64,000 nt of DNA from Thiogranum sp. GTDB lineage: Bacteria > Pseudomonadota > Gammaproteobacteria > DSM-19610. The DNA is taken from contig JASBST010000002.1 of the NCBI GenBank assembly GCA_030148775.1, forward strand, positions 1 to 64,000. The letters are read 5' to 3'. Made by a program: the position numbers and the translations under genes. The notes under the pieces were generated by a model. It saw only the letters and a list, made by a program, of their open reading frames with translations. It was not told where the DNA came from and ran no database searches. This document shows positions 14,614 through 47,452 of this stretch, in pieces; positions within the stretch are counted from its first letter, which is position 1, and every line of letters begins with the position of its first letter.

Positions 14614-14615
14614 GG

Positions 14616-15074: not shown

Positions 15075-15174
15075 GGTGTTCCTGCAGGCCTGGTAAACGC
15101 GCGCAAGTATAACGTCATCTGCGGGGAAATGTTAGGGAAATGCGCCGAATTTCGGCGATTGGGCGTCTCGACAG

Positions 15175-15618
15175 CTAGCTCTTGCGTAAATAGGCGAGCG
15201 CGGCCTGCAGCGCCAACTCGTAGCCGATAGGCCCCAGGCCGCTGATGACACCGACGGCGATGTCAGAAAAATAGGAATGTCGACGAAAATCCTCACGGGC
15301 GTGAACGTTCGACAGATGAACTTCGATGAACGGAATGCCCACCGCCAACAGGGCATCGCGCAAGGCGACACTGGTGTGAGTGAACGCAGCCGGATTAATA
15401 ATAATAAAATTAACACCTTCATCGGCTGCGGAATGGACCTGATCGATAAGTTCATATTCTGAATTAGATTGGAACGTGAGCAACTGTACGCCGGCCGCCC
15501 TCGCCACCGGCCCCAAGCCACGGGTAATATCATCTAAGGTAGCCGAACCGTAATGCGCCGGCTCGCGGACACCGAGCAGGTTCAAATTCGGACCGTTCAA
15601 AACTAGGAGCGTGGACAT
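15175..15618 (-). CDS. aroQ: type II 3-dehydroquinate dehydratase
   Basis: Third step of the shikimate pathway, trans-elimination type. The start is the ATG at 15618 ([20 protein letters not shown]), giving 147 residues; the frame from 15636 adds six unsupported residues. Catalytic Arg18 and Tyr23 (VREPAHYG) are present, as are [11 protein letters not shown], the [16 protein letters not shown] block and [12 protein letters not shown] with the catalytic His. It is first of the aroQ-accB-accC-prmA series, 100 bases upstream of accB. Confidence 0.96.
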
Positions 15619-15771
15619 TGCTAGCCAAATCACCAAAAATCCATAGCATCATAGCAGCGGGACATCGCGATAATCCAGCTATGCGCGAGACCAGAAGCGC
15701 AGAGACATCAGGACCCCGCTAACCGTGCTCGCAAGACGAGACTAGACGCATGGGCAACGAAACCGGTACCG

Positions 15772-22410: not shown

Positions 22411-24042
22411 TCAGACACCAGGCATCCGCGCATGATGCTGGCGCAGAAGCACTAGGAATCCTTTCACAGGCTCCCCTTTTTCGATCCTCACAACAGTATC
22501 CTCCAGCGAGACCACTTCGAATCCAAATTCATCGGCAAGCTCCCGTAGGTAGCGTTCGGCATGAGCGTAACGCGCCTTCAGGTGCAACTCAAATGGGTAC
22601 ACTTCAGTGGACTCGACGGAGAAGACAAACACACCGTGATCTATCAGTGCGGTACGAGCACCGTCGAACACTTCGTTCAAATCACCAATATAGGGGAACA
22701 CATCCGCACCTATGATATGGGAGAACTGAGACGCTCCGTCCTTCATGGGCTTTACAACATCTCCCACCATCAGATCATCGTATACACCTCTTGCCCGCGC
22801 AGTGTCGATCATCTTGGGCGACAGATCTACGCCCACTAGCCGGCGAGCATGCTCCCGAAACCGCGGACCGCACAAACCAGTACCACAACCAATGTCAAGA
22901 ATATCCAACCCCTTGCCCAGCAGACCGGCGCGAGCTAGCATCTCACCAATCTTTTCAGGAATTCTGTAACTAAGACGACCCACCAGACTTTCGTCGAAGG
23001 TTGCGGCGTAGGAATCGAACAAGCTCGCCACGTATTGCGAATCGGCTCGTTTAGGGGTGGGGCCGTCGCCGAGTGCAGCCAGGATATATCGTGTCTGGGA
23101 ATTGCCTGGGTCCAGTCGCCCAGCTTCACGCATATGGATAAGCGCCCGTCCCCGGTCGCCCATGTCTCGGTAGGTTATCCCCAGACAAAACTGCGCTTCG
23201 GCATTGCCCGGTTCGAGCTCCCCGGCACGAATGGCGCATGCCAGGGCCTCGTCATGCCGTCGCTGTCGAAGCCGTACTGCGGACAGCCCCAGCAGCGCCT
23301 TGACGCTAAGCGGATGCTGTTCGAGTATAGATGAGTAACTGCGATCCGCCGCGTCCAGGTCGGAGCACTCCACCAACAACTCCGCGAGACCCAGCCGGGC
23401 ATGCAGATTATCCGGCGCTGCCGCCAGCACATGGGAATAGATCGACTGCGCACTACCGCTGTTGCCAAGCTTGCGACAAACACAGGCCTTGTTGATCAGC
23501 GCATCGGGATAGCCCGGCTGAAGCCGGATCGCTTGATCGAAACAGGAATCGGCCTCTTTCACCGCCCCAAGCGCCAGCAATACACTACCTAGATTGTTGT
23601 AACCCTGAGGATTTCCCGGCTGAAGCTTCAACGCTGTCCGGTAACATTGTTCTGCCTGCCGATATTCACCCTGGCGGAACCATAGATTACCAAGGCTCGT
23701 CTGCGCTTCACTGTCGCCGGGACGTTCGACCAGAACACGCTCGAAACACGCCTGAGCTTCATCGATCTTTCCCTGCTCCAATAAGGCTGCTCCGAGATTT
23801 TTCAGAGCACCGCTATAGCCGGGCTGCAACGCGACGGCACGACGCGCGCAAGACTCCGCCTCGGTATAACGGCCAGTCATCCCATTGATCGCGCTCAGCA
23901 TGTACCAGGCTTCGGCGTCTTTTTTGTCGGCTTGGCAGATTTCGCGAAACGCGCTGATGGCATCATCGAGACGCTGGTTGCGAAACAGTGCCATCGCCTC
24001 AAGCTTTCGCTTGGCCAGATTCTTTTTTGTCGCCAAAAGCAC
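22411..24042 (-). CDS. TPR-fused class I SAM-dependent methyltransferase
   Basis: 543 residues. TPR units occupy residues 1-320, starting with a DAEAWYMLSAINGMTGRYTE unit that is shared with the sulfotransferase-fused paralogues of the window. After a linker (KRADSQYVASLFDSYAATFD), which is common in TPR-methyltransferases, a Rossmann methyltransferase follows: motif I LDILDIGCGTGLCG near residue 378, then LVGVDLSPKMIDTARARG and ADVFPYIGDL. The C-terminus ends VKGFLVLLRQ, which is DREV/UbiE-like. Predicted to methylate a TPR-selected substrate in the cytoplasm; target unknown. Single gene on the minus strand. Confidence 0.85.
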   Translation of the reverse strand: MLLATKKNLAKRKLEAMALFRNQRLDDAISAFREICQADKKDAEAWYMLSAINGMTGRYTEAESCARRAVALQPGYSGALKNLGAALLEQGKIDEAQACFERVLVERPGDSEAQTSLGNLWFRQGEYRQAEQCYRTALKLQPGNPQGYNNLGSVLLALGAVKEADSCFDQAIRLQPGYPDALINKACVCRKLGNSGSAQSIYSHVLAAAPDNLHARLGLAELLVECSDLDAADRSYSSILEQHPLSVKALLGLSAVRLRQRRHDEALACAIRAGELEPGNAEAQFCLGITYRDMGDRGRALIHMREAGRLDPGNSQTRYILAALGDGPTPKRADSQYVASLFDSYAATFDESLVGRLSYRIPEKIGEMLARAGLLGKGLDILDIGCGTGLCGPRFREHARRLVGVDLSPKMIDTARARGVYDDLMVGDVVKPMKDGASQFSHIIGADVFPYIGDLNEVFDGARTALIDHGVFVFSVESTEVYPFELHLKARYAHAERYLRELADEFGFEVVSLEDTVVRIEKGEPVKGFLVLLRQHHARMPGV

Positions 24043-24150: not shown

Positions 24151-25050
24151 TTACGGAGCAATACTGGCAGTGATTCCACCAACAGGATAACCGTCGATGT
24201 CGAACGCCTGCACACTATTGACGGTCAGATTCGTCACGCCTCCGGCGACATAGAACTTGAAATCATGCATAACCGTGATCTCGCCATCGCGCGCTGGCAA
24301 AAGCACTATTTTCATAGTCGCGCCATCGTCGTTCCAGGAAAGATTTTTTATGTAACCCAGCGGATTCACAACATAGGCGCGCCCCACCCCTCCGTTGTCG
24401 GCATCCGGATCATGCGTGAGTTCTACCTGTACAGCGTAGGGAAGAACCGCGCCATCCAGCGATACAGTGTAATGACCGACTCGCTTCAGTGATGCCAGCA
24501 TCTCCGCACTAAGCGGGCCAACCGACTCCGCATCAAAACTACTAGTGCTACCATCTGGAGCAACTATCTCCACTGTCGATCTGGCGGTTTCACCCTCGGG
24601 GTTATCAATCATGATTTCAGTCGCCCCTCCGCCGACCGGTAACGACACGGGCAGATCTACAAACACCACCGTCTGCCACCAGTCCTTGTCGCTGTCGGAA
24701 GAGCCATTGGGAACCGTAAAATTCGCCGTGGTACTTGCGTAGGTACGTGCGAACGGCGTCAGATCCTGATCTGTCTCACGCGATATGATCATGCTCGCCA
24801 ACGGATCGGGATATAGGTTGACGACCGCTCGGACCCGCGTATCGCCCGGTGAATAGATGGTGGGCACCCCTCCCGGCGGCGTGATCGTGACGGTGATGTT
24901 GCTGGGATCGAAGTGATGCTTCCAACCGGCAGCCACAGCGACGGTACCACCGGCCCGAGCGTACTCGTGAAATACCTTGTCGCCGGCACAACTCCATACT
25001 AATGGCAGTGTCAGTACGAGAAGAATGGCTACCCTAGCCCATTTCGTCAT
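24151..25050 (-). CDS. predicted lipoprotein of unknown function
   Basis: 299 residues from the ATG near 25050 (MTKWARVAILLVLTLPLVWSC); an upstream GTG would add an unlikely 42 residues. The N-terminus is a signal peptide ending in a lipobox-like VWSC with Cys21, so lipidation is predicted. The mature part is rich in beta-strand patterns (VTITPPGGVPTIYSPGD, TVEIVAPDGSTSSFDAES) and resembles no family I can name. It lies upstream of, and divergent from, the TPR-sulfotransferase operon. Confidence 0.65.
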   Translation of the reverse strand: MTKWARVAILLVLTLPLVWSCAGDKVFHEYARAGGTVAVAAGWKHHFDPSNITVTITPPGGVPTIYSPGDTRVRAVVNLYPDPLASMIISRETDQDLTPFARTYASTTANFTVPNGSSDSDKDWWQTVVFVDLPVSLPVGGGATEIMIDNPEGETARSTVEIVAPDGSTSSFDAESVGPLSAEMLASLKRVGHYTVSLDGAVLPYAVQVELTHDPDADNGGVGRAYVVNPLGYIKNLSWNDDGATMKIVLLPARDGEITVMHDFKFYVAGGVTNLTVNSVQAFDIDGYPVGGITASIAP

Positions 25051-25520
25051 CTCATTCTCCCCCGTTTTTTTGTTCTGTAGGATTTGCACCGACAGCATGC
25101 CGGCGACCACCTTTGATGAATAGGTTATCGGCTTCGATCGCGGGGTGCAAGAATTCATCAAAAGCGCATGGTGCACGGCCCACGCTCGAACGAATAGGTC
25201 TATATTATTGATAGTTAATGACTAATATTCACCTGACCCGAGGTCTCGAAGACCGTTCCGACCCTAGCCTCGCAAACCGCCGAACCGCGCCCTCTTGCAT
25301 TCCCGCTAGTGGACCGACACACTGAAAATGGGCATATAGAGCTAGCCTGAGTACGATCGATACTGGCTGCCCATGGCCAAAAATTAATACCAACTAAATC
25401 GTCTTGGCGAGACAGCGTCGATGGTCATAAGTTAAGGAGCACGCGGCTTGACCACGTTCGATGGTACACTAACCGCTAACCCTGAAAATGAACTAAATTA
25501 TTACACTTGGGTACCGAACA
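25051..25520. other. intergenic region upstream of the TPR-sulfotransferase operon
   Basis: 470 bases between the divergent lipoprotein gene and the first TPR-sulfotransferase gene. It holds A+T-rich patches (TCTATATTATTGATAGTTAA near 25198) that could be promoters. No reading frame with family similarity and no RNA element is seen. Confidence 0.5.
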
Positions 25521-27587
25521 ATGAGTAACGAAAACGTCACCGAGATGGTCGAACAGGCCAGCGCTCACGTGGAAAATCAGAATTTCAGCGAGGCTCGCAC
25601 ACTTTACGCCGAGATCTGCAGAATCGACGGCGACAATGCCGAGGCTTGGCTTATGCTGGGCGCGATTGACGGCCAGACCGGCGCCGTGGCGAGCGCTATT
25701 GACAACGTCCAGCGCGCCATTCAGATCCAACCCGACTATGCCGATGCTCATCTGACTCTGGCCCATCTCCAGCACGCAGTTGGTCAGCCAGAAGCAGCGC
25801 TGGAAAGTGCGCTGACGGCAACGCGTGTAGCACCAGACTACGGCGAAGCCTGGGTGTTCTTAGCGGGTCTGGCGGGACAATCCGAAAATCTGTACGACAC
25901 AGAAGCGTTCAGCCGCCGGGCGGTAGACTGCCTTCCTGACAACGCCGCGGCGCACGCTAATCTTGCCGGCTCGCTGCACCGGCAGGGGCGATTGCAGGAA
26001 GCTCTATGTAGCTACCGTAAGGCTCTTGAACTCAATCCCTCGCTGTTCGACATCCGGGTGAATTTCGCTAACGCCTTACTTTCGGATGGCCGATACGATG
26101 AAGCGGTCGCAAGTCTGGAAGAATGCATCGGCCTGACACCCGACCACCTCGACACCCGTATCAACCTCGGTATGGGTTACTTACTGCAGGGCCGTCTAGA
26201 TGCCGCAGTCAACACGCTGACAGAGGCCGCGTCCAGCGCTCCAGAATCAGCCGAAGCCGAGATGCGTCTCGCTATGGCGTTAAAAGAACGTGGCGATCTC
26301 GAACAGGCGCATGCCCACTATGTACGTGCACTAGAACTGAAACCCAACGACGCGGTAATCATGTCGGAAATCGGCCTAGTACTCGAGGCGTCGGGCAGAT
26401 TGACGGAGGCGCTGGAAACCTATCAGAACATTCTGCAATTCGCCCCGGATTCCCCGGATATTGTTGCCGCGGAAGCCAGCGTATGGGAAAAACGCGGCGA
26501 CCTCCAGGCGGCATTAGCTAGACTACGGCCCATCATAGACGAAGGAAGAACAACCCCGAGAGTAGCACTAGTGTTTTCGCGGCTTTGTCCAGAGCTGGAT
26601 GTTTGCCAAGAGGCGATGAGTCTACTGGACTCACAGCTCCATTCCGAGAATCTCACCACTTCGCTGCGCGCCGAGCTGAATTACGCAGCGGGACGACTAC
26701 TGAACAACGCCGGTCAGTACAGTAAAGCATTCGAAAGATACACAGAAGCCAACACCCTTAAACCTCGGCAATACGATGCAAGCGAATACGCCAATTACAT
26801 CGACAGGATCACCGCTACATTTACGCGAGAAACACTGGATCGATTGCCGATTGCCACGACAAACAACCCACGCCGCCCTATCTTTGTTGTGGGCATGCCC
26901 CGCTCCGGGACCAGCCTGATCGAACAGATCCTGGCCAGCCACCCCAAAGTCCACGGTGGTGGAGAGCTCAAAACGATTTTCAATATTGTCGACAACATTA
27001 CCGAACACACTGGTACAGCCACCTTCCTCGAAGGTGTGCTCGAACTCAATCAGACCCATGTCAATAATCTGGCTCACGAATATCTCGAACGACTAAACGA
27101 AGTATCGTCCACTGCCGACCGTGTGACTGACAAAATGCCTCATAACTTCCATCACCTTGGATTGATTAGTAAACTTTTTCCTGAGGCGGCAATCATTCAC
27201 TGCAGCCGCGACCCGCTTGACACCTGTCTTTCGTGCTACTTTCATGATTTCTCGGGACACCACCCCTACGCTTACGATCTCAACGCGCTGGGCGAGCATT
27301 ACGCTAACTACCAGCGACTGATGAAGCATTGGCGAGACGTTGGTGTCCGTTTCTTTGATTTATCCTACGAAGCGCTGCTAGAGGACACGCGAACGGTAAC
27401 TCGTTCGCTACTCGATTTCTGCGATCTGGACTGGAACGAGGGCTGCTTGCGTTTTCACGAGACCGAGCGTACTACACTCACTGCAAGCTATGCACAGGTT
27501 AGGCGGCCACTTTATCACTCGGCCGCCGGACGCTGGCGAAACTACGAGCCCTTTATCGACGACCTCAAGGCCAGGCTGGGCTCCTAG
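25521..27587 (+). CDS. TPR-containing sulfotransferase, operon gene 1
   Basis: 688 residues. About eleven TPR units (1-390) begin with DNAEAWLMLGAIDGQTG. The C-terminal Sulfotransfer_3-type domain has the PAPS 5'-phosphosulfate loop RPIFVVGMPRSGTSLIEQIL near 453, the GGGEL strand, and TDKMPHNFHHLGLI. A 3'-phosphate-binding IIHCSRDPLDTCLSCYFHDF follows near 557. The domain closes with the SYAQVRRPLYHSAAGRWRNYE signature shared by all paralogues here. No signal peptide, so cytoplasmic. It would transfer sulfate from PAPS to a hydroxyl of an unknown substrate. First gene of a six-gene operon; 12 bases to the next gene. Confidence 0.88.
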   Translation: MSNENVTEMVEQASAHVENQNFSEARTLYAEICRIDGDNAEAWLMLGAIDGQTGAVASAIDNVQRAIQIQPDYADAHLTLAHLQHAVGQPEAALESALTATRVAPDYGEAWVFLAGLAGQSENLYDTEAFSRRAVDCLPDNAAAHANLAGSLHRQGRLQEALCSYRKALELNPSLFDIRVNFANALLSDGRYDEAVASLEECIGLTPDHLDTRINLGMGYLLQGRLDAAVNTLTEAASSAPESAEAEMRLAMALKERGDLEQAHAHYVRALELKPNDAVIMSEIGLVLEASGRLTEALETYQNILQFAPDSPDIVAAEASVWEKRGDLQAALARLRPIIDEGRTTPRVALVFSRLCPELDVCQEAMSLLDSQLHSENLTTSLRAELNYAAGRLLNNAGQYSKAFERYTEANTLKPRQYDASEYANYIDRITATFTRETLDRLPIATTNNPRRPIFVVGMPRSGTSLIEQILASHPKVHGGGELKTIFNIVDNITEHTGTATFLEGVLELNQTHVNNLAHEYLERLNEVSSTADRVTDKMPHNFHHLGLISKLFPEAAIIHCSRDPLDTCLSCYFHDFSGHHPYAYDLNALGEHYANYQRLMKHWRDVGVRFFDLSYEALLEDTRTVTRSLLDFCDLDWNEGCLRFHETERTTLTASYAQVRRPLYHSAAGRWRNYEPFIDDLKARLGS

Positions 27588-27599
27588 CAACAACCAGTA

Positions 27600-29648
27600 A
27601 TGGGCCTACGGAGCAAAGTGTCCCGCAAATCCGGCCCCAGATTGCCCGGTAAACAGCCCACCAAGGCCGATCTTTTGGCGGCGATACAGCGGCGACGACT
27701 GGGCGAGGCCAGGACCCTTGGAACGCGCCTGTGCGAGCTCCACCCAAATGACGCCGAAGCCTGGTTCCTGCTTGGATCAATCCACGGCGGACTCAAAGAC
27801 TTTCCGGCCGCGGCGCAGTGTTGTCACCGCGCAGTAACGCTGCAACCTGCCAATGCAATGGGTCACCATAATCTCGGCATAGCGTTGAGCCGATCCGGAC
27901 AGTTCGATACCGCTATCGACGCCTTTCGTCAAACACTGAAACTACGCCCCGACATGATCGAGTCTCGGCTCGAACTCGCCAACGCACTCCAGTTGTCCGG
28001 CGATCACCAGCGGGCCATCGACACCTACAGACAAGTGCTGGCTCAGTGCCCGGATCTAGTTGCGGCGAGTATCAACCTGGCGCACGCCTATGTGGCGGCG
28101 GGAAGTCTCGAGGCATCAGCAGACGTCTGTCAGCGAGTTCTCAAGCAACAACCGGACCAGACAGAGGCGCTGCGTCTGCTAGCCGATATCAATCTGCAGT
28201 GTAGCCGGTTTCAGCAGTCCTGCGACCTGTTCAGGCGTCTCATCCACCTGAACAGTGGGGACGCGAGCGCATACGCCGGGCTCGGCAGGGCACTTAAGGA
28301 AGCCGGTCAACTGGATGAAGCGTTGGAAAGTACGCGACGGGCTGCGTCAGTCGAACCCAACTCCCCCGCCTGGCAGCTGCAATTAGGAACCATTTATCAA
28401 GCATGCGAGGAACTGGAACAGGCGCTTGAATGTTACCGATCGGCACTAATGCTGGCGCCTGACCTGGCGCCGGCAATCAACAATATCGGACTGGTCCTGC
28501 AGGCACAGAACAGAGCAGATGAGGCGATCGGTTACTACCATAGAGCGATCGCCCTGGCCCCTGATCAGATTGAGGCGTACGTCAACCTAGCCAAGAGTCA
28601 GCGTGAACTGAACCAATTGGAGGCAGCAGCGGCAACGCTGGACGAGGCTGTGGCGCGGCAACCCGATGCGGTGGCTCCGCACTGGGACCGATCGTTAGTG
28701 TGGTTGCAGCAAGGTGACTTTAGTAGGGGCTGGCCAGAGTATGAGTGGCGGTGGGAAGGCAAGGGACTGGTGCGGCGGGGCTTTCCGCAGCCACTGTGGG
28801 ACGGCGCGCCATTGCAAGACAAGACACTGCTAGTGCATGCCGAACAAGGCATAGGCGACGAGATCATGTTCGCGTCCTGTTTCCCGGAACTGCTCACGCT
28901 TGCCGGGCACCTGATTATCGATTGCGACCCGCGGCTAGCGCCGCTGTTCGCCCGCTCATTCCCGCGAGCTCACGTCCACGGCGGCACCCAGGCCGAAAGT
29001 TTCACTTGGCTCGATGCACTGCCACGTGTCGATTTCCAAAGCCCCGCCGGCAGCCTATTGCGCCACCTGCGTCCGACTCTGGCGACGTTTCCCGCGCACA
29101 CCGGCTACCTTCAGGCTGATCCCGTCCAGCGCGAACACTGGCGTCGGCGGTTGGAAGAGATCGGCCCGGGTCTTAAGGTGGGGATCTCTTGGCGTGGCGG
29201 TCGTGATGCGACGCAGAAGGCGAAGCGTTCGATACGGCTGTCGATGTGGGAGCCCATCCTGGAAGTACCTGGCGTTCAATTCGTAAGCTTGCAGTATGGC
29301 GACTGTGTCGCAGAACTCGAACAGGCCCGAGAGCAGCTGAGCACGCAGATCAAGCACTTGCCGGACCTCGATCCGGTCGCTGATCTGGATAGATTTGCCG
29401 CTTTAATCGCCGCACTCGATCTGGTCATCTCGGTCGACAACTCGACGGTGCACCTGGCCGGCGCGCTGAACACTCCAGTTTGGTGCCTGCAGCCGTTTGC
29501 AGCCGACTGGCGCTGGCTATCGGACACTGAACACTGTCACTGGTACCCCTCCCTCATACACGTGCGCCAGCGAGCGCCTGGCCAGTGGGACCGTGTGATA
29601 GCTCGAGCGTCTGATCGGCTGCAGCGCCTCGTCGGACCAGGGAGTTGA
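27600..29648 (+). CDS. TPR protein with GT9-like glycosyltransferase domain, operon gene 2
   Basis: 682 residues. TPR units (1-365) again open with the DAEAWFLLGSIHGGLKDFPA unit. The C-terminal part (about 370-680) begins DRSLVWLQQGDFSRGWPEYE, the standard linker of TPR-glycosyltransferases. It then shows LLVHAEQGIGDEIMFASCFP and LKVGISWRGG, then LDLVISVDNSTVHLAGALNT and PVWCLQPF, matching the ADP-heptose-transferase (GT9) fold. It sits inside a run of TPR-sulfotransferases with near-zero spacing, so glycosylation and sulfation probably act in one pathway. Donor sugar unknown. Confidence 0.85.
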   Translation: MGLRSKVSRKSGPRLPGKQPTKADLLAAIQRRRLGEARTLGTRLCELHPNDAEAWFLLGSIHGGLKDFPAAAQCCHRAVTLQPANAMGHHNLGIALSRSGQFDTAIDAFRQTLKLRPDMIESRLELANALQLSGDHQRAIDTYRQVLAQCPDLVAASINLAHAYVAAGSLEASADVCQRVLKQQPDQTEALRLLADINLQCSRFQQSCDLFRRLIHLNSGDASAYAGLGRALKEAGQLDEALESTRRAASVEPNSPAWQLQLGTIYQACEELEQALECYRSALMLAPDLAPAINNIGLVLQAQNRADEAIGYYHRAIALAPDQIEAYVNLAKSQRELNQLEAAAATLDEAVARQPDAVAPHWDRSLVWLQQGDFSRGWPEYEWRWEGKGLVRRGFPQPLWDGAPLQDKTLLVHAEQGIGDEIMFASCFPELLTLAGHLIIDCDPRLAPLFARSFPRAHVHGGTQAESFTWLDALPRVDFQSPAGSLLRHLRPTLATFPAHTGYLQADPVQREHWRRRLEEIGPGLKVGISWRGGRDATQKAKRSIRLSMWEPILEVPGVQFVSLQYGDCVAELEQAREQLSTQIKHLPDLDPVADLDRFAALIAALDLVISVDNSTVHLAGALNTPVWCLQPFAADWRWLSDTEHCHWYPSLIHVRQRAPGQWDRVIARASDRLQRLVGPGS

Positions 29649-29652
29649 AGCT

Positions 29653-31527
29653 GTGAATATGACTCCGCCGTCGAGCTGCGATAAATCCGAAATCACAAGA
29701 CTGATCCAGAGTCAGCAGATCTCAACCGCCCATGAACGCTGTAAACAGTTGTGTTTACGGCATCCGAACGACGCGGAGGTCTGGTTTCTGATGGGTGCGA
29801 TCAACGGCCAGCTGGGTGATTTCTCCGTAGCCGAAAAATGCTGCCGTCGGGCGCTTGAGTTGGCACCCGGCCAACCAGCCCTATTGACCAACCTCGGGGT
29901 TGCCCTATTGCACCAGGGCAAAACCGAGGAAGCGAAGCGACAGCTGCAAGCCGCGACGCGAGCCGACGCTTCAAACGCCGCCGCATGGCTGGAGCTTGCC
30001 AATACCTACAAGCTAAGCGCGGAACCCAGAGAAGCGTTGCGCGCCTATGAACGGGTTCTGACTCTGCGACCGGGCGCCTACGCCGTCCACTACAATCTAG
30101 CGCTGACTCTACTGGAACTTGACCGAGACGACGACGCCAGCCGACATTTAGCGCAAGCTATCAAATTCAACAATCAGTTCCTGGATGCGTATCTACACCT
30201 GAGTGCAATATATATACAGAGACGACAGTTTCGACAGGCGGGCGAACTCCTAAAGAACGGCCTGCATGCACTGCCCGGGAATGCCGAGCTATATTTCCGA
30301 TTGGGGGTGGCATGCCAGGAACAGGGAGAGACCAACCGCGCCATCGAATGCTACCGACAAGCACTGGAGTCAGAACCCGCACACGTCGATGCTCATATCG
30401 GAATTGCCGGCGTGCTCGGCCTGGAAGGAAACTATGATGAGGCTCATCAAATACTGCGAAAAATACTAGCAGTACAACCACCGACGGCCTCACTCGGCAT
30501 AACGTTTGCAAATCTTGCATCACGGATCGGAGCCGAGCGGGAAGCCACCGACATGCTTCTGCAGCTCCTGAAAGAACAACACACGGAACGAATTCGCTCC
30601 AAATTGGAGTTTGCTCTTGCCAGCCTGTACGACCGCGCGGGCGAGTACGATACCGCCTTCGAATACTTTCGCAGCGCCAACCTCAACGCCGGCACCCGCT
30701 TCGACGCTCGCACCTGTACGGACGGATTTAACCGACTGAAAGCAGTATTTTACAGCTCTCGCTCCGAGCCGCGCGTTCGCACCTCCGACAACAGTTTGCG
30801 ACCTGTATTCATTGTTGGGCTACCGCGCTCTGGAACGTCGCTCGCAGAGCAAATTCTAGCCACTCATCCGAAAGTCTTCGGCGCAGGTGAGCTGCCACTG
30901 ATACATGAGTTACCTGAACGCGTTCGCGCAATAGCCGGCATGGCCGCGCCACCTTACCCTCAGTGCCTGAACCTGTTGACCTGTGAGCAGCTCGAAGCTC
31001 TGGCGCAAGAATACTTTGCGCATTTGAAAGCGCGTTCGGAAACGGCATCTTGGGTGGTTGACAAGGCACCGATCAATTTTTTACATCTTGGACTGATAGA
31101 CCGCATGTTCCCTGATGCCCGAATCATTCACTGCATGCGCGATCCGATGGACACCTGCCTATCGTGCTATTTCCACGATTTCAGCGGCGACTATGCCTAC
31201 GCGTACGACTTACGCGATCTTGGTTTCTACTACCGGCTCTATGAATCGCTTATGCATCATTGGCGTAAGCATCTCGATATAGCGATTCATAATGTTCGAT
31301 ACGAAGATATAGTAAATAAACCCGAACGTGAGATCCGACGGATGCTTGCCTTCTGCGGTCTGAACTGGGATCCAGCCTGCATGGAATTCCACAAAACAAA
31401 ACGAACAGTTGCTACAGCGAGTCACAGCCAAGTGCGACGGCCACTGTATTCCAGCTCCATAGGCCGCTGGCGCAACTATGAATCGCATCTTGCCGACCTC
31501 TCAGACGCATTGTATGGTGGTGATTGA
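29653..31527 (+). CDS. TPR-containing sulfotransferase, operon gene 3
   Basis: 624 residues. TPR units at 1-330 begin with DAEVWFLMGAINGQLGDFSV. The sulfotransferase domain has the PAPS loop RPVFIVGLPRSGTSLAEQIL near 383, VDKAPINFLHLGLIDRMFP, and the 3'-phosphate motif RIIHCMRDPMDTCLSCYFHD near 491. The C-terminal signature is SHSQVRRPLYSSSIGRWRNYE. The translated sequence is closest in layout to the gene at 25521. It begins 4 bases after the TPR-GT9 stop and its own stop overlaps the next start (ATGA at 31524-31527). Confidence 0.87.
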   Translation: MNMTPPSSCDKSEITRLIQSQQISTAHERCKQLCLRHPNDAEVWFLMGAINGQLGDFSVAEKCCRRALELAPGQPALLTNLGVALLHQGKTEEAKRQLQAATRADASNAAAWLELANTYKLSAEPREALRAYERVLTLRPGAYAVHYNLALTLLELDRDDDASRHLAQAIKFNNQFLDAYLHLSAIYIQRRQFRQAGELLKNGLHALPGNAELYFRLGVACQEQGETNRAIECYRQALESEPAHVDAHIGIAGVLGLEGNYDEAHQILRKILAVQPPTASLGITFANLASRIGAEREATDMLLQLLKEQHTERIRSKLEFALASLYDRAGEYDTAFEYFRSANLNAGTRFDARTCTDGFNRLKAVFYSSRSEPRVRTSDNSLRPVFIVGLPRSGTSLAEQILATHPKVFGAGELPLIHELPERVRAIAGMAAPPYPQCLNLLTCEQLEALAQEYFAHLKARSETASWVVDKAPINFLHLGLIDRMFPDARIIHCMRDPMDTCLSCYFHDFSGDYAYAYDLRDLGFYYRLYESLMHHWRKHLDIAIHNVRYEDIVNKPEREIRRMLAFCGLNWDPACMEFHKTKRTVATASHSQVRRPLYSSSIGRWRNYESHLADLSDALYGGD

Positions 31528-33605
31528 TGTCTAAAAACCGCGTGCTTGATCAAGTCCGCCATCTTTGCGGTTGTCAGCGTTTCGCCCAGGCAGCTTTACT
31601 TATCGATCACTACTGCGAATCTCACAGCGTGGACGCAGACACCTGGTACGTCCGAGCATCTGTGCATGCGCACCTAGGCAATCTTGATCAAGCAATCGAC
31701 AGCTGCCGCCGCGTCCTGATCGTTCGACCGCGAGACCGGGGGGCACGTTACAATCTTGCTGTCGCGCTACAGCATGCCGGACGACTGCACGAAGCCCGCG
31801 ACGCGTTTGACGAACTTCTAACGCAGTACCCCGACGACGTTCGGGCGCTGCGTGCCGCCGGAACTCTCAGCCTCCAGTTGGGCAATCTTGATCAGGCCGT
31901 CGCTCGGCTGCATCAGGCGGCGTCCAAAGAACCCGCCGACGACAACACACTTATCTCGCTGGCCGACGTCTTGCACAGAAAAAAAGCGGATAGAGAGGCG
32001 CTGAAAAAGCTTAATGCGGTTTCACCCGCCAGCAAGTCCACGGCAGAATACCAGTTTCTTCGCGGCGTGGTGTTGTATGCGCTGGGACGGCATGAACAGG
32101 CCCTGGATTGTTATCGGCATACGCTCAATCACGACCCGCGCAATGTTGGCGCTCTCAACAACCTCGGCCATCACGAAATGGAGCAGGGGCGTTTTGATAG
32201 CGCTGTCGACTATTTCCAACGTGCGGTGAATCACAACTACAAACATCCCCTCTGCCACCTTAATCTCGCCATTGCCCAGGAAAGCCTAGGCCACTTGGCG
32301 GTGGCGGTCGACAGCTACAAAACCGCTCTATCGCTCGATCCTGCATGTGCGGATGCCGCCGTGCAGATGGGCTTCTGCCTCACCGATATGGGCCGCTACA
32401 CCGAGGCCGACGCGGCCTTTATCGGCGTATTGGCCACTCGCCCGGGACACGAGCCTGCCCTGGCGGGTCGCGCCATGCTCCTGCACCGCAGGGGACAGAA
32501 CGCCGAGGCGCTCGATACGCTCGCACCCTGCCTCGCCTCTTCACGGCTCGATCCACAGGCGGCACAGGTTCTCGCCCGAGTTGCACCGCATATCGGTCGC
32601 ATTGAGGAATCCATTGTCTCGATCGAAAAGTCTCTAGAATCGGTACGAGGCGACCGGGACGCCGAAGCCTCTATGCGCTTCGCCCTGGGTGAACTCTATG
32701 ACAAATCGGGAGAGTACGATCGGGCCTTCACATGTTTCCGTGATGCAAACCGTGTCGCCCCCGGCCACTTCGATAGTGAGCAACACCGCCGCTTCATTGA
32801 TGATATACGCACCGTTTTCTCTCCACAGGCCATGCCACGACTTCCGCGCTCCGATCTCCACACACAACGGCCGGTTTTCATCGTCGGCATGCCGCGTTCT
32901 GGCACGACCCTCATCGAGCAGATACTGAGCGCCCATCCCGACGTTTACGGTGCGGGAGAACTCACCATAATCGGTGACATCGCGCATGGGCGGCTTCCCC
33001 TGACCCGCGGGTGGGCTCCATATCCGGCCTGGATCTCCCGTCTCGATGCGACCGACATCGGCCGCTTGACGGAAGCGTACCTCAACTCTCTTCCTCAAGC
33101 GTCATCCCACGCCGTACGAACGACGGACAAGATGCCGCATAACTTTCTCTATCTAGGGCTGATCGAGATGTTGTTCCCCGATGCCCGTGTCATTCATGTA
33201 AATCGGGATCCGCGCGACAACTGCCTCTCTCTTTATTTTCAGCGGATGAATCCGATGCACGCCTATACCCAGGACCTCCGGACGCTGGGAACTTACTACA
33301 TACAGTATGAGTCTTTAATGCGACACTGGAATCAAGTCGTCGGCATCCCCATGTTTAACGTAAGATACGAAGATGTGATCAACCACTTCGAGGAGACGTG
33401 CCGCTCCCTGATCACTTTTTGCGGCCTGAAATGGGATGCACGATGCTTGGCATTCCATGACATCGACCGCGCGGTCAATACACCCAGCTATGACCAAGTA
33501 CGCCGACCGATCTACCGCAGCTCGGTCGACAGATGGAAACACTACAAAGCGCATGTTAGCGGGCTAGTTGAAGCCCTGCATCCTGCCGGCACGGGGGATT
33601 TCTGA
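31524..33605 (+). CDS. TPR-containing sulfotransferase, operon gene 4
   Basis: 693 residues, the longest of the family here. TPR units at 1-395 include DADTWYVRASVHAHLGNLDQ at the start. The PAPS loop is RPVFIVGMPRSGTTLIEQIL near 450, followed by TDKMPHNFLYLGLIEMLFPD. The 3'-phosphate motif is VIHVNRDPRDNCLSLYFQRM near 555, in which the usual Cys after His is Val and the FHDF block is FQRM. It therefore belongs with the 33607 gene as a somewhat different subtype. The C-terminal signature is SYDQVRRPIYRSSVDRWKHY. Four-base overlap with the preceding gene. Confidence 0.87.
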   Translation: MMSKNRVLDQVRHLCGCQRFAQAALLIDHYCESHSVDADTWYVRASVHAHLGNLDQAIDSCRRVLIVRPRDRGARYNLAVALQHAGRLHEARDAFDELLTQYPDDVRALRAAGTLSLQLGNLDQAVARLHQAASKEPADDNTLISLADVLHRKKADREALKKLNAVSPASKSTAEYQFLRGVVLYALGRHEQALDCYRHTLNHDPRNVGALNNLGHHEMEQGRFDSAVDYFQRAVNHNYKHPLCHLNLAIAQESLGHLAVAVDSYKTALSLDPACADAAVQMGFCLTDMGRYTEADAAFIGVLATRPGHEPALAGRAMLLHRRGQNAEALDTLAPCLASSRLDPQAAQVLARVAPHIGRIEESIVSIEKSLESVRGDRDAEASMRFALGELYDKSGEYDRAFTCFRDANRVAPGHFDSEQHRRFIDDIRTVFSPQAMPRLPRSDLHTQRPVFIVGMPRSGTTLIEQILSAHPDVYGAGELTIIGDIAHGRLPLTRGWAPYPAWISRLDATDIGRLTEAYLNSLPQASSHAVRTTDKMPHNFLYLGLIEMLFPDARVIHVNRDPRDNCLSLYFQRMNPMHAYTQDLRTLGTYYIQYESLMRHWNQVVGIPMFNVRYEDVINHFEETCRSLITFCGLKWDARCLAFHDIDRAVNTPSYDQVRRPIYRSSVDRWKHYKAHVSGLVEALHPAGTGDF

Positions 33606-33606
33606 C

Positions 33607-35472
33607 ATGAACAACAGGGCACTCAAACAAAGAGCCACCAGTCTGTTTCACGCGCAAGACTACACCGCAGCGTGCGGTTTGCTGAGTCAGTGCTGCGAGC
33701 AAACACCGGGCGACATCGAGGCGTGGTACCTGTTTGGCGTGGCCAGCGCCATGCTCGGCCACCTCGGAAACGCGGAAACTGCGTGCCGACGAGTACTTAA
33801 ACTGAATCCCGCCATCCCCGGCGCTTATGTCAATCTCGTGAATGTTTTGTTAATGACCGATCGTGTTCCAGAGGCTGTCGATGCTTGTCTGAAAGGCTTG
33901 GAGTGCGCCCCAAAAAATGCTCAGCTCAAGAGCCTGCTCGGTACCATCAGATGGCGCGAGGGGAAAATTCCTGAAGCGATTTCAGAGTTCGAAGCTGCAA
34001 TTGCGCTGGACCCAGACCAAGCGGAGACACAGAACAATCTCGGTGCGCTGTTATGGGAACAGCGTCGCTTCGAAGAAGCCGCAATTTACCTGCAACGCGC
34101 GCTGTCTCTAGCGCCGGAGTATGCAGATGCGCACGCCAATCTCGGCAACGTCTTGACCGAGATGGACCGGACCGACGAGGCCATTCACTGCTATCGCAAG
34201 GCGCTGCAATTGCGGCCTGAGCTATCCAAGAATCACTGCAATCTCGGCAAAGCCTTACAGACTCAGGGCGATGACAGCGCCGCCATGACGTGTTTCGATG
34301 CAGCGATCAGAACAAATCCTGCGGACGTAGAGGCAATCATCGCGAAGTGTGAACTTCTCGAAGTAATGAATAGAGCGGACGAAGGGCGGGAACTAATAGC
34401 GCCCTTGATGAAACGTAAAACCCCTTCTGCAAAGGCGGCACTGGCGTATGCCAAACTCGCATCCGATCAACAAACTAGATACCAAGCTATCGAATATCTC
34501 GAATCGGTCTTGCATGGCTACGTTCCCCCACGCGAGCAGGTCGATATTCACTTCGCGCTCGGGGATATGTATGACGGCATCGAGGAATACGACAGCGCCT
34601 TTCGTCACTACCGTATTGGCAACGAAGCAGATTCCCGGCCGTTTGACCCCGAAAAAGCCAAGTTCTCTGTCAGCAATATAATGCAGTCGTTCTGCAAGCA
34701 GACGCTGGGCAGCCTGCCGCGTGCGGAATGCGACTCGGAAGCCCCCATGTTTATCCTCGGCATGCCCCGATCAGGCACGTCTTTGGCGGAGCAAATACTG
34801 GCCAGTCACTCCGACGTTCACGGTGGCGGCGAGCTCGATTGGCTCTGTAGTATTACCGGCCGCCTGCCTGCGTTGCTCGGCAGCTCTCAACCGTATCCGG
34901 GCTGTATTCGCCTGCTGACAGCGCAGGCTATCAACACGTGCGCTCATGAGCATCTGGATCGACTGCGCACATTGGCTCCGCAGGCGCAGCGCATCAGCGA
35001 CAAAACCCCCATGAATTTTCTCGATATCGGACTGATCACACTATTATTCCCAAAAGCGAGGATTGTCCACTGCCGGCGCGATGCGCGTGACAATTGCCTG
35101 TCTATTTACTTTCATCGTTTCAATGCCCACCATGCCTATGCGACTGATCTAAGATCGCTGGGGTTATTTTACGGGCTATACGAACAGTTGATGCAGTATT
35201 GGGAGAACGTCCTTACAACAGAAATTTTTCGGATGGGCTATGAAGAGACAGTAGCCAAGCCCGAGGACATGACCCGCGACCTGATAGCGTTTGTCGGTCT
35301 GGAGTGGCAGGAAGCCTGTCTGCGATTCTACGATTCGCGCCGCATCGTGCACACCCCCAGCTACAAGCAGGTTCGACAACCGATCTATAGCCGATCCGTC
35401 TGGCGCTGGAAACACTATGAGCAGCACCTTGACCCGCTGCTGGAAGCCCTAGCACGGCCTCTGAAGATATGA
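33607..35472 (+). CDS. TPR-containing sulfotransferase, operon gene 5
   Basis: 621 residues from the ATG at 33607, one base after the previous stop; the in-frame ATG at 33568 lies inside the preceding gene and is rejected. TPR units (1-330) open with DIEAWYLFGVASAMLGHLGN. The sulfotransferase domain has the PAPS loop APMFILGMPRSGTSLAEQIL near 379, SDKTPMNFLDIGLITLLFPK, and the 3'-phosphate motif IVHCRRDARDNCLSIYFHRF near 485. The C-terminal signature is SYKQVRQPIYSRSVWRWKHYE. Its stop overlaps the next start by four bases (ATGA at 35469-35472). Confidence 0.87.
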   Translation: MNNRALKQRATSLFHAQDYTAACGLLSQCCEQTPGDIEAWYLFGVASAMLGHLGNAETACRRVLKLNPAIPGAYVNLVNVLLMTDRVPEAVDACLKGLECAPKNAQLKSLLGTIRWREGKIPEAISEFEAAIALDPDQAETQNNLGALLWEQRRFEEAAIYLQRALSLAPEYADAHANLGNVLTEMDRTDEAIHCYRKALQLRPELSKNHCNLGKALQTQGDDSAAMTCFDAAIRTNPADVEAIIAKCELLEVMNRADEGRELIAPLMKRKTPSAKAALAYAKLASDQQTRYQAIEYLESVLHGYVPPREQVDIHFALGDMYDGIEEYDSAFRHYRIGNEADSRPFDPEKAKFSVSNIMQSFCKQTLGSLPRAECDSEAPMFILGMPRSGTSLAEQILASHSDVHGGGELDWLCSITGRLPALLGSSQPYPGCIRLLTAQAINTCAHEHLDRLRTLAPQAQRISDKTPMNFLDIGLITLLFPKARIVHCRRDARDNCLSIYFHRFNAHHAYATDLRSLGLFYGLYEQLMQYWENVLTTEIFRMGYEETVAKPEDMTRDLIAFVGLEWQEACLRFYDSRRIVHTPSYKQVRQPIYSRSVWRWKHYEQHLDPLLEALARPLKI

Positions 35473-37442
35473 CCACGCCCGTTCCCATCGCCGAACTTAA
35501 GCGGCAGGCGGAAAACGCATTTTCGGCTGGCGACCTACATGCCGCCCGGGACCTGCTCAGGAAGATTTGCTCGGCAGCTCCGGACGACTTTGAGGCCTGG
35601 CAGCATATGGGCCATGCCTGCGAGCATTTGGCACTGTTCGAGGACGCGCTGCTTGCCTGGAACGGCGCACTGCGGGTAAAGAAGACGTCGGCCATGGCGC
35701 TGTACGGCCTGGCACAGGCACAGCTGCAACTGGGCGATTTTCAAGGCTGCATCATAACCTGCCGCAACTCGCTGGCGCACGATGCTTCCCGGGTCGGCAT
35801 CCGTACGCTGTTCGCGCGCGCAGCCTTGGCGCTCGGTCAAAGCGAAGACGCGGTAGAGTGTCTACGGCAAGCACTTGTCCTGAAAGCGGACTCCGCGCCC
35901 TTGCATCATGAGCTCGGGAAAGCTCTGCTTGCCCAGCAGAAGGCTGAACAGGCGATGGACTGTTTTCACCAGGCCATCAAGATTGACGCTACTAATATTC
36001 AATATTTTTTGGATCGTGGTCTGTGCTTTTTAGGACAAGGGGATCTGATAGCCGCCGCGCGGGACTTTAGCATTTGCACAGAAATGCAACCGAACTATGT
36101 ACCTGCCCTGATTAACCTGGGCATGATCGCGCTCGCCGAGGATCGACTCCAGGACGCCATGATCTATTATAAAAAAGCGCTGACCGCAGACCCGGCTTCG
36201 ACCGAGACACTTTGCAATATAGGGCATCTGCTTCTGCTTATGCACGATTATGAAGGCGCTCTGGCACATTACCGCCAGGCCGCTCGGATCGCTCCCGATG
36301 ATCCGATCGCCGCGGCAGGCGAGGCCAGCGCCCTGGAACGCCAGGGCGACAAAGAAGCCGCGCTGCATCGTCTCGAACCCTTTCTCGAAACTGAAAACAC
36401 GCATTCTCGAATCGCCTGCGCCTTCGCAACCGCCAGTTCGGCCAAAAAGCAGGAGCGCAACGCCGCCGCGCTAATGGAACGCGTGTTACAAAAACAGTTC
36501 CTGACTCGCGACGAACAAACCAATCTACATTTCGAACTGGGACGCCTCTACGATCGCTTTGGCGAATACGACAAGGCCTTCCGGCACTACGCGCAAGGCA
36601 ACGCCGCGGTACCGCGCTGTTTTGATCGTGACCGGCACAGCTCGGCGATCGACGAAATGATTTCTACTTTTTCCGTAGACTTCTTCGCCCAGACAAAACC
36701 AGCATCCAATACGGATGAAATGCCTATTTTCATCGTCGGTATGTCCCGTTCAGGCACCAGTCTGATCGAGCAGATACTTGACAGCCATCCCAACGTACAC
36801 GGCGCCGGGGAACTGGAAAAGATCAAGAAAATCGCCGCTCGATTAGCGCAGCAGGGCGGTTCTATGGGCACCCTTCCGCAATATCTTACCCGGATTCGCC
36901 GAGGCGAAATCGACCAACAGGCGATGACTCATCTCACTTGGTTGCATGCCGTCGCCCCAGGCGCCCGTTTCGTTACCGACAAGATGCCCAGCAACTACAT
37001 GTTCCTGGGATTGATCGCGCTGTTGTTTCCAAAAGCGCGCGTGATCCACTGCCGGCGCAATCCAATGGATTCCTGTCTCTCGTGCTACTTTCACCAGTTC
37101 GCCAGGGGCCACGACTACAGCTACGACTTAGGCAATCTCGGTCACTACTACCGGGAATACGAACGACTCATGCGCCACTGGCGTGAGACCCTGCCGTTGC
37201 GCATGATCGATATCCAGTACGAACAGTTAATAGAGAAATTCGAACCCGTCACCCGAGGATTGCTGGATTTTCTCGGGCTTGACTGGAACCCGGCGTGTCT
37301 CGCCTTTCACCGCAACCCTCGCCTGGTATCCACAGCAAGCTATGACCAAGTGCGCCAGCCGTTGTACAGCCGATCGGCAGGGCGCTGGCGAAACTATGAG
37401 CAACATCTCAAGCCATTGGGAAAAGCGCTAAAACAAGAATAG
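35469..37442 (+). CDS. TPR-containing sulfotransferase, operon gene 6
   Basis: 657 residues. TPR units at 1-360 start with DFEAWQHMGHACEHLALFED, the most diverged version of the shared first repeat. The PAPS loop near 418 reads MPIFIVGMSRSGTSLIEQIL, with Ser replacing the Pro found in every paralogue; the catalytic-loop Arg, Gly and Thr/Ser are kept. The 3'-phosphate motif is VIHCRRNPMDSCLSCYFHQF near 524, and the C-terminal signature is SYDQVRQPLYSRSAGRWRNYE. Last gene of the tightly packed operon; the following oxygenase gene starts about 100 bases later and may be co-transcribed. Confidence 0.87.
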   Translation: MTTPVPIAELKRQAENAFSAGDLHAARDLLRKICSAAPDDFEAWQHMGHACEHLALFEDALLAWNGALRVKKTSAMALYGLAQAQLQLGDFQGCIITCRNSLAHDASRVGIRTLFARAALALGQSEDAVECLRQALVLKADSAPLHHELGKALLAQQKAEQAMDCFHQAIKIDATNIQYFLDRGLCFLGQGDLIAAARDFSICTEMQPNYVPALINLGMIALAEDRLQDAMIYYKKALTADPASTETLCNIGHLLLLMHDYEGALAHYRQAARIAPDDPIAAAGEASALERQGDKEAALHRLEPFLETENTHSRIACAFATASSAKKQERNAAALMERVLQKQFLTRDEQTNLHFELGRLYDRFGEYDKAFRHYAQGNAAVPRCFDRDRHSSAIDEMISTFSVDFFAQTKPASNTDEMPIFIVGMSRSGTSLIEQILDSHPNVHGAGELEKIKKIAARLAQQGGSMGTLPQYLTRIRRGEIDQQAMTHLTWLHAVAPGARFVTDKMPSNYMFLGLIALLFPKARVIHCRRNPMDSCLSCYFHQFARGHDYSYDLGNLGHYYREYERLMRHWRETLPLRMIDIQYEQLIEKFEPVTRGLLDFLGLDWNPACLAFHRNPRLVSTASYDQVRQPLYSRSAGRWRNYEQHLKPLGKALKQE

Positions 37443-37546
37443 GCTATTACGGACCTGCCGGCCAACCCCGTAAATTCGCCGGACAGGCCGCTGTAAGTTT
37501 GATATCGTAACAGCGTTCTGCAACCGCCGAGCCCATGGAGCGCGAA

Positions 37547-38257
37547 ATGTCTTACGACTGGATCAATACCGCCATCGACACGATAGAGCTAAGGCAGCAG
37601 TTCGGACGAAAAGGACGCTTGCGGATAACTAACATACTCGAACCCACTCGCGCTGTCGCCATCCAGCGAGAGCTTGCTACATTGGCCACATGGACACTCT
37701 GTTATATAGAAAAGGGGCAACCGCACGGCGTTGCGCTGCACGAGTGGGACACGTGGGGACCGACACGCCAAGCCCACTTTCTAGCCGCGGTCAACAAAAC
37801 CGCAGCCAGCGGCTTCCAGTTTCTTTATCTGCATCACGCGCTGACAGAGCTTCCGACCACCACTGCCCCCGACTCGGCACTGAGACAATTTCAGGGGTAT
37901 CTCCAATCCTGGCGTTTCATCGAATTTCTCAAATCCGTCACTGGTAGTCAAGATGGCGTACGCGTAGATGCCCATGCCGCCCGCTTTTCCTCCGGTCACT
38001 TCCTCAACAGGCATAACGACTCGGAAGATCCGGCCCGGCGCATTGCCTATGTGTTCAATTTTACGCCTGAGTGGCGCGCGGACTGGGGCGGAACACTGCA
38101 TTTCATGGAACGAGACGGCACTATCAGCGATTCCTTTGCACCTCTGTTCAATTCGCTGGTGCTGTTTCGGGTACCTGTACTTCACTATGTCGCCCCGGTT
38201 GCCGCATTTTCGCCGACGCCGCGCCTATCGATCACCGGCTGGCTGTATGCGCAATAG
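37547..38257 (+). CDS. 2-oxoglutarate/Fe(II) oxygenase, prolyl 4-hydroxylase-like
   Basis: 236 residues from the ATG at 37547, chosen because GGAG ends six bases before it; the ATG at 37535 is the alternative. The C-terminal double-stranded beta-helix holds the iron ligands His156-x-Asp158 (NRHNDSED) and His213 (LHYVAPV), and the 2-oxoglutarate-binding Arg226 (PRLSITGWLYA). The family hydroxylates proline or a related side chain in proteins or peptides. Placed right after the sulfotransferase operon, it could create the hydroxyl that other enzymes here modify; that link is inference. A decayed copy of its 3' end lies at 42016-42080. Confidence 0.83.
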   Translation: MSYDWINTAIDTIELRQQFGRKGRLRITNILEPTRAVAIQRELATLATWTLCYIEKGQPHGVALHEWDTWGPTRQAHFLAAVNKTAASGFQFLYLHHALTELPTTTAPDSALRQFQGYLQSWRFIEFLKSVTGSQDGVRVDAHAARFSSGHFLNRHNDSEDPARRIAYVFNFTPEWRADWGGTLHFMERDGTISDSFAPLFNSLVLFRVPVLHYVAPVAAFSPTPRLSITGWLYAQ

Positions 38258-44103: not shown

Positions 44104-44293
44104 CCCAAAGTTTCGGAAATGACCATCGAACCGCTTCCGGCCGGTGGCGAGCAACCGTTTGGTTGTAATCATTGTCAGTGCCCGCCTATTATACGCACAT
44201 CGGGCGCTTGATCAGGCATCGACCCGACGCACATTAACTTACTGAATATAATAATATTTATATCTACACATACATCTGCAGCCCGATTAACCC

Positions 44294-46558: not shown

Positions 46559-47452
46559 CTACTGTGTTTTATTGCGACCTCGCCGCGCTACACCCACCAG
46601 TCCCAATAGCCCGGAACCAAATAACCATACCGCGGGGGGCACGGGAATCGGTGGCGGAGGTGGTTCGACGCTGGTGACTGTAAGTTGGGTGAAATCGAAG
46701 TTGGCATTGAATCCGGGGAACGGGCTCGTGCGCATCGGTGAACCGCCGATACCGATATCCCCGTTGGTGGCATCCGTTACCGTATCCACGACCAGCGGCG
46801 TAGTGCCGCTGGGATTGGTACCCAACATTACCGTGCCGATGTCAGTAGTATTGAACGTGGTAGTGACAATCGGGGCAGGCCCGATCGGTAACGTATAGCT
46901 CTGTTTGCCCGAGGAGAACACCGTATTGTCACTCGCCGCCAGCCCCCCTCCCGTAATCAGGTCGCCCGCCAGACCCGCAAGCGCCAATGGGGTAGCAAGC
47001 GGATCATTCAGATCTACGCCGGCCGTGCTCAGGTGCTCGAAAAATCCGCCCGCATCCAATACGATGCTGACTGGAATACCGTTATTGCCGTTCCAGTTGA
47101 AACCCATATTGCCAAGGATCAAACTACCCGCGCCGCCCATTCCGTCGCCTATAGCCTGAAATGTGACCGCGGTGGTTATAGCTTCTCCACTGCCAAAAAA
47201 CGAAAATGGTGTGACCGATCCAGTGCCACTTTGCGTGAGCAGGTCAAAACTCATCGAACCGCTTACCGGTGTTCGCCAGCCGTACCAAGGACTAACGCTG
47301 TTCTGATCGGTATTATTCAGCGCCGTACCCGTCGGGTTGAGCATTGTTAGCAACCCGCTAAAGTCCATCTGCAGTGATAGCGCAGAGGACACCGACGGCA
47401 CACTCAAAGTAGCCGAAATGGCGGCCGCCAGAATCGTTTTCTTTTTCATCAT
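46559..47452 (-). CDS. VPLPA-CTERM (PEP-CTERM-like) sorted protein
   Basis: 297 residues from the ATG at 47452, preceded by GGGGAG eight bases upstream. The signal peptide is MMKKKTILAAAISATLSVPS. The ectodomain carries PFSFFGSGEAITTAVTFQAI, LILGNMGFNWNGNNGIPVSI, QSYTLPIGPAPIVTTTFNTT and DIGIGGSPMRTSPFPGFNAN, shared with the proteins at 49995-50834 and 53370. The C-terminus PVPPAVWLFGSGLLGLVG followed by ARRGRN is the tripartite VPxPA motif, hydrophobic helix and basic tail recognised by exosortases. Predicted outer-surface or matrix protein; function unknown. Confidence 0.88.
   Translation of the reverse strand: MMKKKTILAAAISATLSVPSVSSALSLQMDFSGLLTMLNPTGTALNNTDQNSVSPWYGWRTPVSGSMSFDLLTQSGTGSVTPFSFFGSGEAITTAVTFQAIGDGMGGAGSLILGNMGFNWNGNNGIPVSIVLDAGGFFEHLSTAGVDLNDPLATPLALAGLAGDLITGGGLAASDNTVFSSGKQSYTLPIGPAPIVTTTFNTTDIGTVMLGTNPSGTTPLVVDTVTDATNGDIGIGGSPMRTSPFPGFNANFDFTQLTVTSVEPPPPPIPVPPAVWLFGSGLLGLVGVARRGRNKTQ

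Follow-up and report, generated by a model that had tools for sequence, protein, structure and literature searches.

What is the function of a run of six consecutive genes, five encoding sulfotransferases (STs) and one a glycosyltransferase-like protein, all fused to tetratricopeptide repeats (TPRs)? This array, ST1-GT9-ST2-ST3-ST4-ST5, lies head to tail at positions 25521-37442 of the window, the 64,000-nucleotide stretch of Thiogranum sp. DNA analyzed here, which is part of contig C53 (97.7 kb) in a 3.1-Mb genome bin that is 86.7% complete. Our best explanation, with a probability of about 0.45 judged from sequence comparisons and structural models, is that the STs work in the cytoplasm, sulfating surface proteins that are exported and probably glycosylated, and belong to a variable surface-decoration island. 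The array and a sixth ST, encoded outside the operon, are as follows.

25521..27587, + strand: ST1, TPR-sulfotransferase, 688 amino acids (aa), ATG start; PF13469 E value 1.3e-45, plus TPRs
27600..29648, + strand: TPR-GT9, 682 aa, ATG start; TPR superhelix fused to a GT9-type (heptosyltransferase-like) domain
29653..31527, + strand: ST2, TPR-sulfotransferase, 624 aa, GTG start; PF13469 E value 5.4e-49
31524..33605, + strand: ST3, TPR-sulfotransferase, 693 aa, starting at TTG 31524 or ATG 31527; PF13469 E value 1.3e-41
33607..35472, + strand: ST4, TPR-sulfotransferase, 621 aa, ATG start; PF13469 E value 4e-36
35469..37442, + strand: ST5, TPR-sulfotransferase, 657 aa, with an ATGA overlap with ST4; PF13469 E value 4.5e-47
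42124..44172, − strand: ST6, the sixth TPR-sulfotransferase of the island; PF13469 E value 2.5e-45

The original prediction, a tandem operon of six genes of about 2 kb, stands in its essentials. All six open reading frames (ORFs) were confirmed, with gaps of 12, 4, -4, 1, and -4 bases; if ST3 starts at ATG 31527, the third gap becomes -1 (a 1-base TGATG overlap). The raw ORF of ST4 opens at TTG 33568, ahead of its ATG. TPR repeats were found by Pfam in all six array proteins and PF13469 (Sulfotransfer_3) in ST1 to ST5 (E values, 4e-36 to 5e-49); ST1 to ST6 all combine a PF13469 match above the cut-off with N-terminal TPRs and thus belong to a single TPR-sulfotransferase family. As predicted, every ST copy retains the loops for 3'-phosphoadenosine 5'-phosphosulfate (PAPS) and the C-terminal signature, and the TPR halves are unlike one another (22 to 31% identity, versus 43 to 52% for the catalytic halves). 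Genome profile searches place the full TPR-STs of this organism in this window only. Elsewhere in the genome, a distant sulfotransferase-like match lies inside a 2,488-aa open frame (G000:C1:47655-48275).

The catalytic half most closely resembles the animal protein-tyrosine sulfotransferases (TPSTs), both in sequence and in predicted fold. A profile of the six STs retrieved TPST1/2 first among solved structures (E values, 6e-20 to 1e-16), and the C-terminal signature, SYxQVRxPxY..RW, aligns with the TPST motif STDQVxKPVN..KW. Six residues do not vary among 40 relatives: R26, E47, K104, R129, S137, and S223. Of these, R26, E47, K104, and S223 occupy the positions of the Arg, Glu, Lys, and Ser that are catalytic in TPST2. 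In a fold search with a catalytic-only model of ST5 (predicted local distance difference test score [pLDDT], 90), the 13 best hits were all TPSTs (TMq, 0.71 to 0.79), with polyketide-synthase STs (0.67 and 0.59) and SULT and heparan enzymes (about 0.5) below them. Such a truncated model was needed because TPR matches swamp the full-length search and hide the catalytic relationship. The STs share with metazoan TPST1/TPST2 (3AP1, 5WRI, and 5WRJ) the catalytic fold, PAPS loops, Arg/Glu/Lys/Ser positions, and a DQVxKP..KW-type C-terminal motif but differ from them in lacking a Golgi anchor, in carrying an N-terminal TPR superhelix, and in occurring as multiple copies per operon. They also lack the TPST segment GEETRVIPR, the basic segment that lines the substrate groove; the profile alignment shows GELxxI in its place.

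The N-terminal half points to a different group of enzymes. The fold search with the full-length AlphaFold2 (AF2) model of ST5 (pLDDT, 94.9) was led by SPY and OGT (8dtf at rank 1; OGT TPR domain 1w3b at TMt 0.69), owing to the TPR arm. Taken together with the TPST-like catalytic fold, these matches indicate an OGT-like arm joined to a TPST-like head. The STs share with eukaryotic OGT/SPINDLY and bacterial TPR-GT41 proteins an N-terminal TPR superhelix with the transferase domain placed C-terminal to it; however, that domain is a PAPS sulfotransferase and not a glycosyltransferase. Since the STs and the GT9 protein have a sulfotransferase or GT9 domain instead of GT41, they are OGT/SPY-like in manner without being members of that family. 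Genuine TPR-GT41s are encoded in the same island; these three proteins, a TPR-methyltransferase, and ST6 had not been mentioned in the original prediction.

18462..20627, + strand: OGT1, TPR-GT41; PF13844, 58.3 bits
44636..46468, + strand: OGT2, TPR-GT41; PF13844, 271.5 bits
58091..60040, − strand: OGT3, TPR-GT41; PF13844, 188.6 bits; related proteins in the G009, G010, G014, and G016 islands
22411..24042, − strand: TPR-methyltransferase; PF08241/PF13649; shares the N-terminal repeat type of the STs

A profile of the first 72 residues of ST1, ST2, ST5, and ST6 matches the N termini of the TPR-methyltransferase (64 bits), GT9 (56 bits), ST4 (44 bits), and ST3 (27 bits), as against at most 18 bits for internal repeats and at most 15 bits for the three window OGTs. 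This repeat type is also present in OGTs of the G009 and G010 islands. Among 20 relatives, matches better than an E value of 1e-12 lie on ST-bearing contigs, with the exception of one match in a short G011 fragment. A uniquely conserved docking tag was considered for this module and rejected: its mean pairwise identity is 27.5%, compared with 37% for other TPR stretches, although the latter were taken in their best register, which favors the control. With raw identity no higher than elsewhere in the arms, the module represents a repeat type shared by position and is not proof of a common partner.

A partial counterpart of the operon, as sought following the original prediction, was found in the congener G008 (L064 5774-11584). 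Its ST-GT9-ST block has the same order as ST1-GT9-ST2 (the GT9 counterpart lies at L064 7864-9720) and short overlaps, which together with the spacing of the window genes supports the operon. The best full-length window matches of the block are the positional counterparts, ST1, GT9, and ST2 (473, 411, and 405 bits). For the first ST of G008, the TPR half scores 225 bits against that of ST1 and at most 124 bits against any other; for the second, ST2 yields 158 bits and the next best 121. Arm types are thus held by position. This gives partial support to the suggestion that each arm selects a different target, whereas the N-terminal repeat type common to the STs, GT9, and the TPR-methyltransferase argues against the arms being fully independent. 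Promoter-like sites (9 versus 8.1 ± 2.8) and terminator-like sites (16 versus 14.0 ± 3.6) occur at the level expected by chance, so that transcript boundaries cannot be read from the sequence.

In the explanation that we prefer, the operon would encode cytoplasmic PAPS-dependent sulfotransferases, each with a TPST-type head and an OGT-like superhelix, together with a TPR-GT9 glycosyltransferase. The acceptor would be a protein that the TPR arm grips ahead of its export, and sulfate would be added by the catalytic end, most likely to glycans built on this protein by the neighboring TPR-GT41, GT9, GT2, and GT4 enzymes. The decorated proteins would then be exported and sorted, with several STs bearing different arms serving different sulfation sites. 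The sequence and model comparisons establish the domain architecture, the TPST-like fold with its conserved catalytic residues, the operon spacing, the conserved flanks, the recurrent neighbors, and the turnover of ST copies; from these we infer the ST activity, the acceptor, the cytoplasmic site, and the division of labor. The best candidate acceptors would be the VPLPA-CTERM proteins, which are rich in Ser and Thr and whose genes lie beside those of the STs; these and other secreted or outer membrane neighbors are listed below.

46559..47485, − strand: VPLPA1, secreted protein with a VPLPA-CTERM-like tail (...IPVPPAVWLFGSGLLGLVGVARRGRNKTQ); candidate substrate, with homologs beside STs in congeners
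49995..50834, − strand: VPLPA2, VPLPA-CTERM protein; TIGR03370, 28.0 bits, over the cut-off; candidate substrate
53370..55976, + strand: VPLPA3, large Ig-like surface protein with a C-terminal transmembrane segment and Arg-rich tail; PF16403 E value 1.7e-37; candidate substrate
51738..53207, + strand: FadL/OMPP1-like outer membrane porin; PF03349, 74 bits; recurs with the ST island
24151..25176, − strand: secreted protein or lipoprotein whose gene diverges from that of ST1; the G009 and G010 islands encode homologs

VPLPA-CTERM proteins and the FadL-like porin recur in congener islands. A VPLPA gene directly precedes an ST gene on the same strand in G008 (L064), G003 (L068), and a further gammaproteobacterium (L090), the gene being a VPLPA2 homolog in G008 and G003, and a VPLPA gene lies next to an ST gene in G007 and G016; VPLPA3 adjoins FadL in G003, G006, G008, G009, and G014. 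The TIGR03370 tail exceeds its cut-off in VPLPA2 and its congener homologs, and an exosortase match is found elsewhere in the same genome (PF09721; 28.6 bits, cut-off 25.7). VPLPA1 has no NCBIfam match. The 24151..25176 product has no family match; it resembles L148 18671-19618 (38%) and L057 7867-8832 (29%). Ser and Thr make up 19 to 21% of the window VPLPA proteins. The removal of 3'-phosphoadenosine 5'-phosphate (PAP) has a candidate enzyme in CysQ, a 3'(2'),5'-bisphosphate nucleotidase encoded on C53 beyond the window (L160 6141-6935, − strand; 335 bits), which would recycle PAP; its position downstream of XrtA-type export genes is kept in G009 and G016.

Several observations weigh against this explanation. 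The 86.7%-complete bin yielded no full APS (adenosine 5'-phosphosulfate) kinase and no CysD or CysH family match, even though PAPS would be required by the STs; full-length APS kinase domains were found in six congeners. The STs sampled outside Gammaproteobacteria are not beside VPLPA genes, as judged by a simple filter for VPLPA-type tails. The GT9 assignment of the second array protein is weak and partial: PF01075 (Glyco_transf_9) matches with an E value of 1e-5 and 25.3 bits (cut-off, 22) and covers only 42 residues. Finally, the window VPLPA proteins are poor in Tyr (0.6 to 1.4%), and no Tyr is conserved across loci, which speaks against their Tyr sulfation.

A fuller version of the same scheme can be put forward only tentatively: the five to six TPST-fold STs, with their distinct arms, might form a multienzyme protein sulfation system that lays down a combinatorial sulfate pattern on exported surface proteins. 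In this scheme, the arms would follow the same design as those of the methyltransferase and glycosyltransferases of the island, and turnover of the locus from species to species would be like that of an antigen locus.

It is rather doubtful that the STs are instead true bacterial TPSTs, each sulfating tyrosines of a different secreted protein, with the TPR arm replacing the acidic-motif recognition of TPSTs. The nearest solved structures and the arm types held by position are compatible with that idea, as is Xanthomonas RaxST, a cytoplasmic bacterial TPST that acts before secretion (PMC9372746, PMC6637879). By description, RaxST (raxX-raxSTAB) resembles the window STs in being bacterial, cytoplasmic, TPST-like, and encoded beside genes for secreted proteins; it is reported to be single, with a small peptide substrate and a dedicated exporter, whereas the window STs are TPR-fused and multicopy (PMC6637879, PMC9372746). 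No RaxX or RaxAB was recognized among the window ORFs by inspection, no dedicated search having been run. Against true TPSTs stand the replacement of GEETRVIPR by GELxxI and the Tyr-poor nearest secreted neighbors; the VPLPA proteins were rejected as Tyr sulfation substrates for want of a conserved or strongly acidic-flanked Tyr.

That the acceptor is an exopolysaccharide or lipopolysaccharide from the adjacent XrtA-type export locus appears unlikely, although the setting lends the idea some weight. The low GC content of the island (52 to 57%, compared with 61 to 64% outside) and its two flanks count as evidence for the preferred explanation; the left flank is syntenic in congeners (purH, dusB, prmA, accC, accB, and aroQ).

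13273..15636, − strand: conserved left flank, accC-accB-aroQ; shared by G009, G012, and others

On the right, the flank consists of XrtA-type exopolysaccharide export, chain-length, kinase, and ATPase genes, followed by cysQ, with several of the proteins matching XrtA models below the curated cut-offs. The island abuts the export, chain-length, and kinase genes in the window, G003, G009, G010, and G016, and the pattern of conserved flanks around a variable interior is similar to that of polysaccharide loci. The interior ranges from about 14 kb in G003 and 20 kb in G009 to 46 kb in the window and 57 kb in G010 (the last inferred from one contig), and congener islands differ in their ST sets. 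The closed genome G009 has a compact order: aroQ, VPLPA3, FadL, VPLPA2, OGT, lipo341, one ST, cyclophilin, and export genes. However, no flippase, polymerase, or initiating transferase was recognized among the island ORFs by inspection, and proteins are the usual targets of TPR arms.

It is very improbable that the six array proteins form one hetero-complex whose fixed stoichiometry is set by translational coupling, as had been suggested from the overlapping or near-overlapping genes, with which the ST-GT9-ST order kept in G008 would agree. Start/stop overlaps are commonplace in bacterial operons, and the number of ST catalytic domains varies within the genus (1 in G009, 6 in the window, and at least 9 in G016), which contradicts a fixed stoichiometry; the single ST of G009 is not part of a cassette, and a tree of 145 catalytic domains revealed no close congener ortholog for any of ST1 to ST6. 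In that tree, in which many deep forks lack support, the window copies sit on long branches (0.64 to 1.03 changes per site), ST3, ST4, and ST6 group weakly, and G016, G007, and G010 have clear ST orthologs among themselves. A recent local duplication of the window array was rejected on these grounds, the catalytic branches being long and no recent duplication clade being present. A comparison of dN/dS for the two halves, proposed originally, was usable for congener ortholog pairs, which are under purifying selection in both (omega, 0.11 to 0.36 in the TPR half and 0.08 to 0.27 in the catalytic half, with dN higher in the former); it failed for window paralogs, in which synonymous sites are saturated. 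Equally little weight goes to redundant copies kept by chance or by selfish tandem amplification, for which there are clear local duplications in other arrays (L092, L062, L083, and L135), since the window arms are far from the near identity that redundancy would imply, the copies are deeply diverged with catalytic residues intact, selection on the orthologs of congener copies is purifying, and arm types are held by position.

If, as we prefer, the STs act on proteins or protein glycans, the extent and complexity of bacterial surface sulfation would have been greatly underestimated, and concrete candidate substrates would be indicated by the conserved ST-GT9-ST and VPLPA-ST neighborhoods. According to a 2022 review, most bacteria lack TPST, whose distribution is only sparse (PMC9372746). 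TPR-STs, in turn, occur in 59 of 274 sampled Gammaproteobacteria at an E value of 1e-40 or better, with one to at least nine matches per genome (at most nine candidates were scored per genome, so that nine is a floor). Arrays of three or four STs at spacings of about 2 kb are found in G136, G059, G277, and G251, and arrays of at least two TPR-STs in L105, L087, L092, and L096. As in the window, the TPR-ST genes of these arrays are arranged head to tail, two to four or more in a row, and some of them overlap; the window array is among the longest seen, includes a TPR-GT9, and is not made up of a recent duplication clade. Given this recurrence, it represents a large form of a family that is widespread and apparently has not been studied. 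Literature searches on TPR-sulfotransferases under the names tried returned nothing relevant. The component parts and the tandem habit are already found elsewhere; the extent of the array, its GT9 member, and the reading of a TPST on an OGT arm have apparently not been described in the literature that could be searched.

The gammaproteobacterial L105 1153-14797 is comparable to the window array, with four consecutive TPR-STs, another ST upstream, and an opposite-strand ST fragment downstream. Single ORFs with two sulfotransferase domains, i.e., fused TPR-STs, are encoded by L144 2407-6633 (1,408 aa), from Bradyrhizobium sp. STM 3843, and by G139:C1 174358-177225 (1,363 aa).

Other genes of the island include the following.

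37535..38257, + strand: 2OG-Fe(II) oxygenase, just 3' of ST5; PF13661, 74.1 bits
56144-56815, − strand: second 2OG-Fe(II) oxygenase
15772-18123, − strand: protein of 783 aa that combines a cyclophilin domain with choice-of-anchor domains D and U and a Cys-transmembrane-Arg tail; the G009 and G012 loci encode homologs

The two oxygenases may hydroxylate the surface proteins that would be sulfated in the preferred explanation. Small proteins at 56969-58021 and 38403-39023 have no Pfam matches and look P-loop/sulfotransferase-like by eye, and a further small protein, at 63176-63796, matches Sulfotransfer_2.

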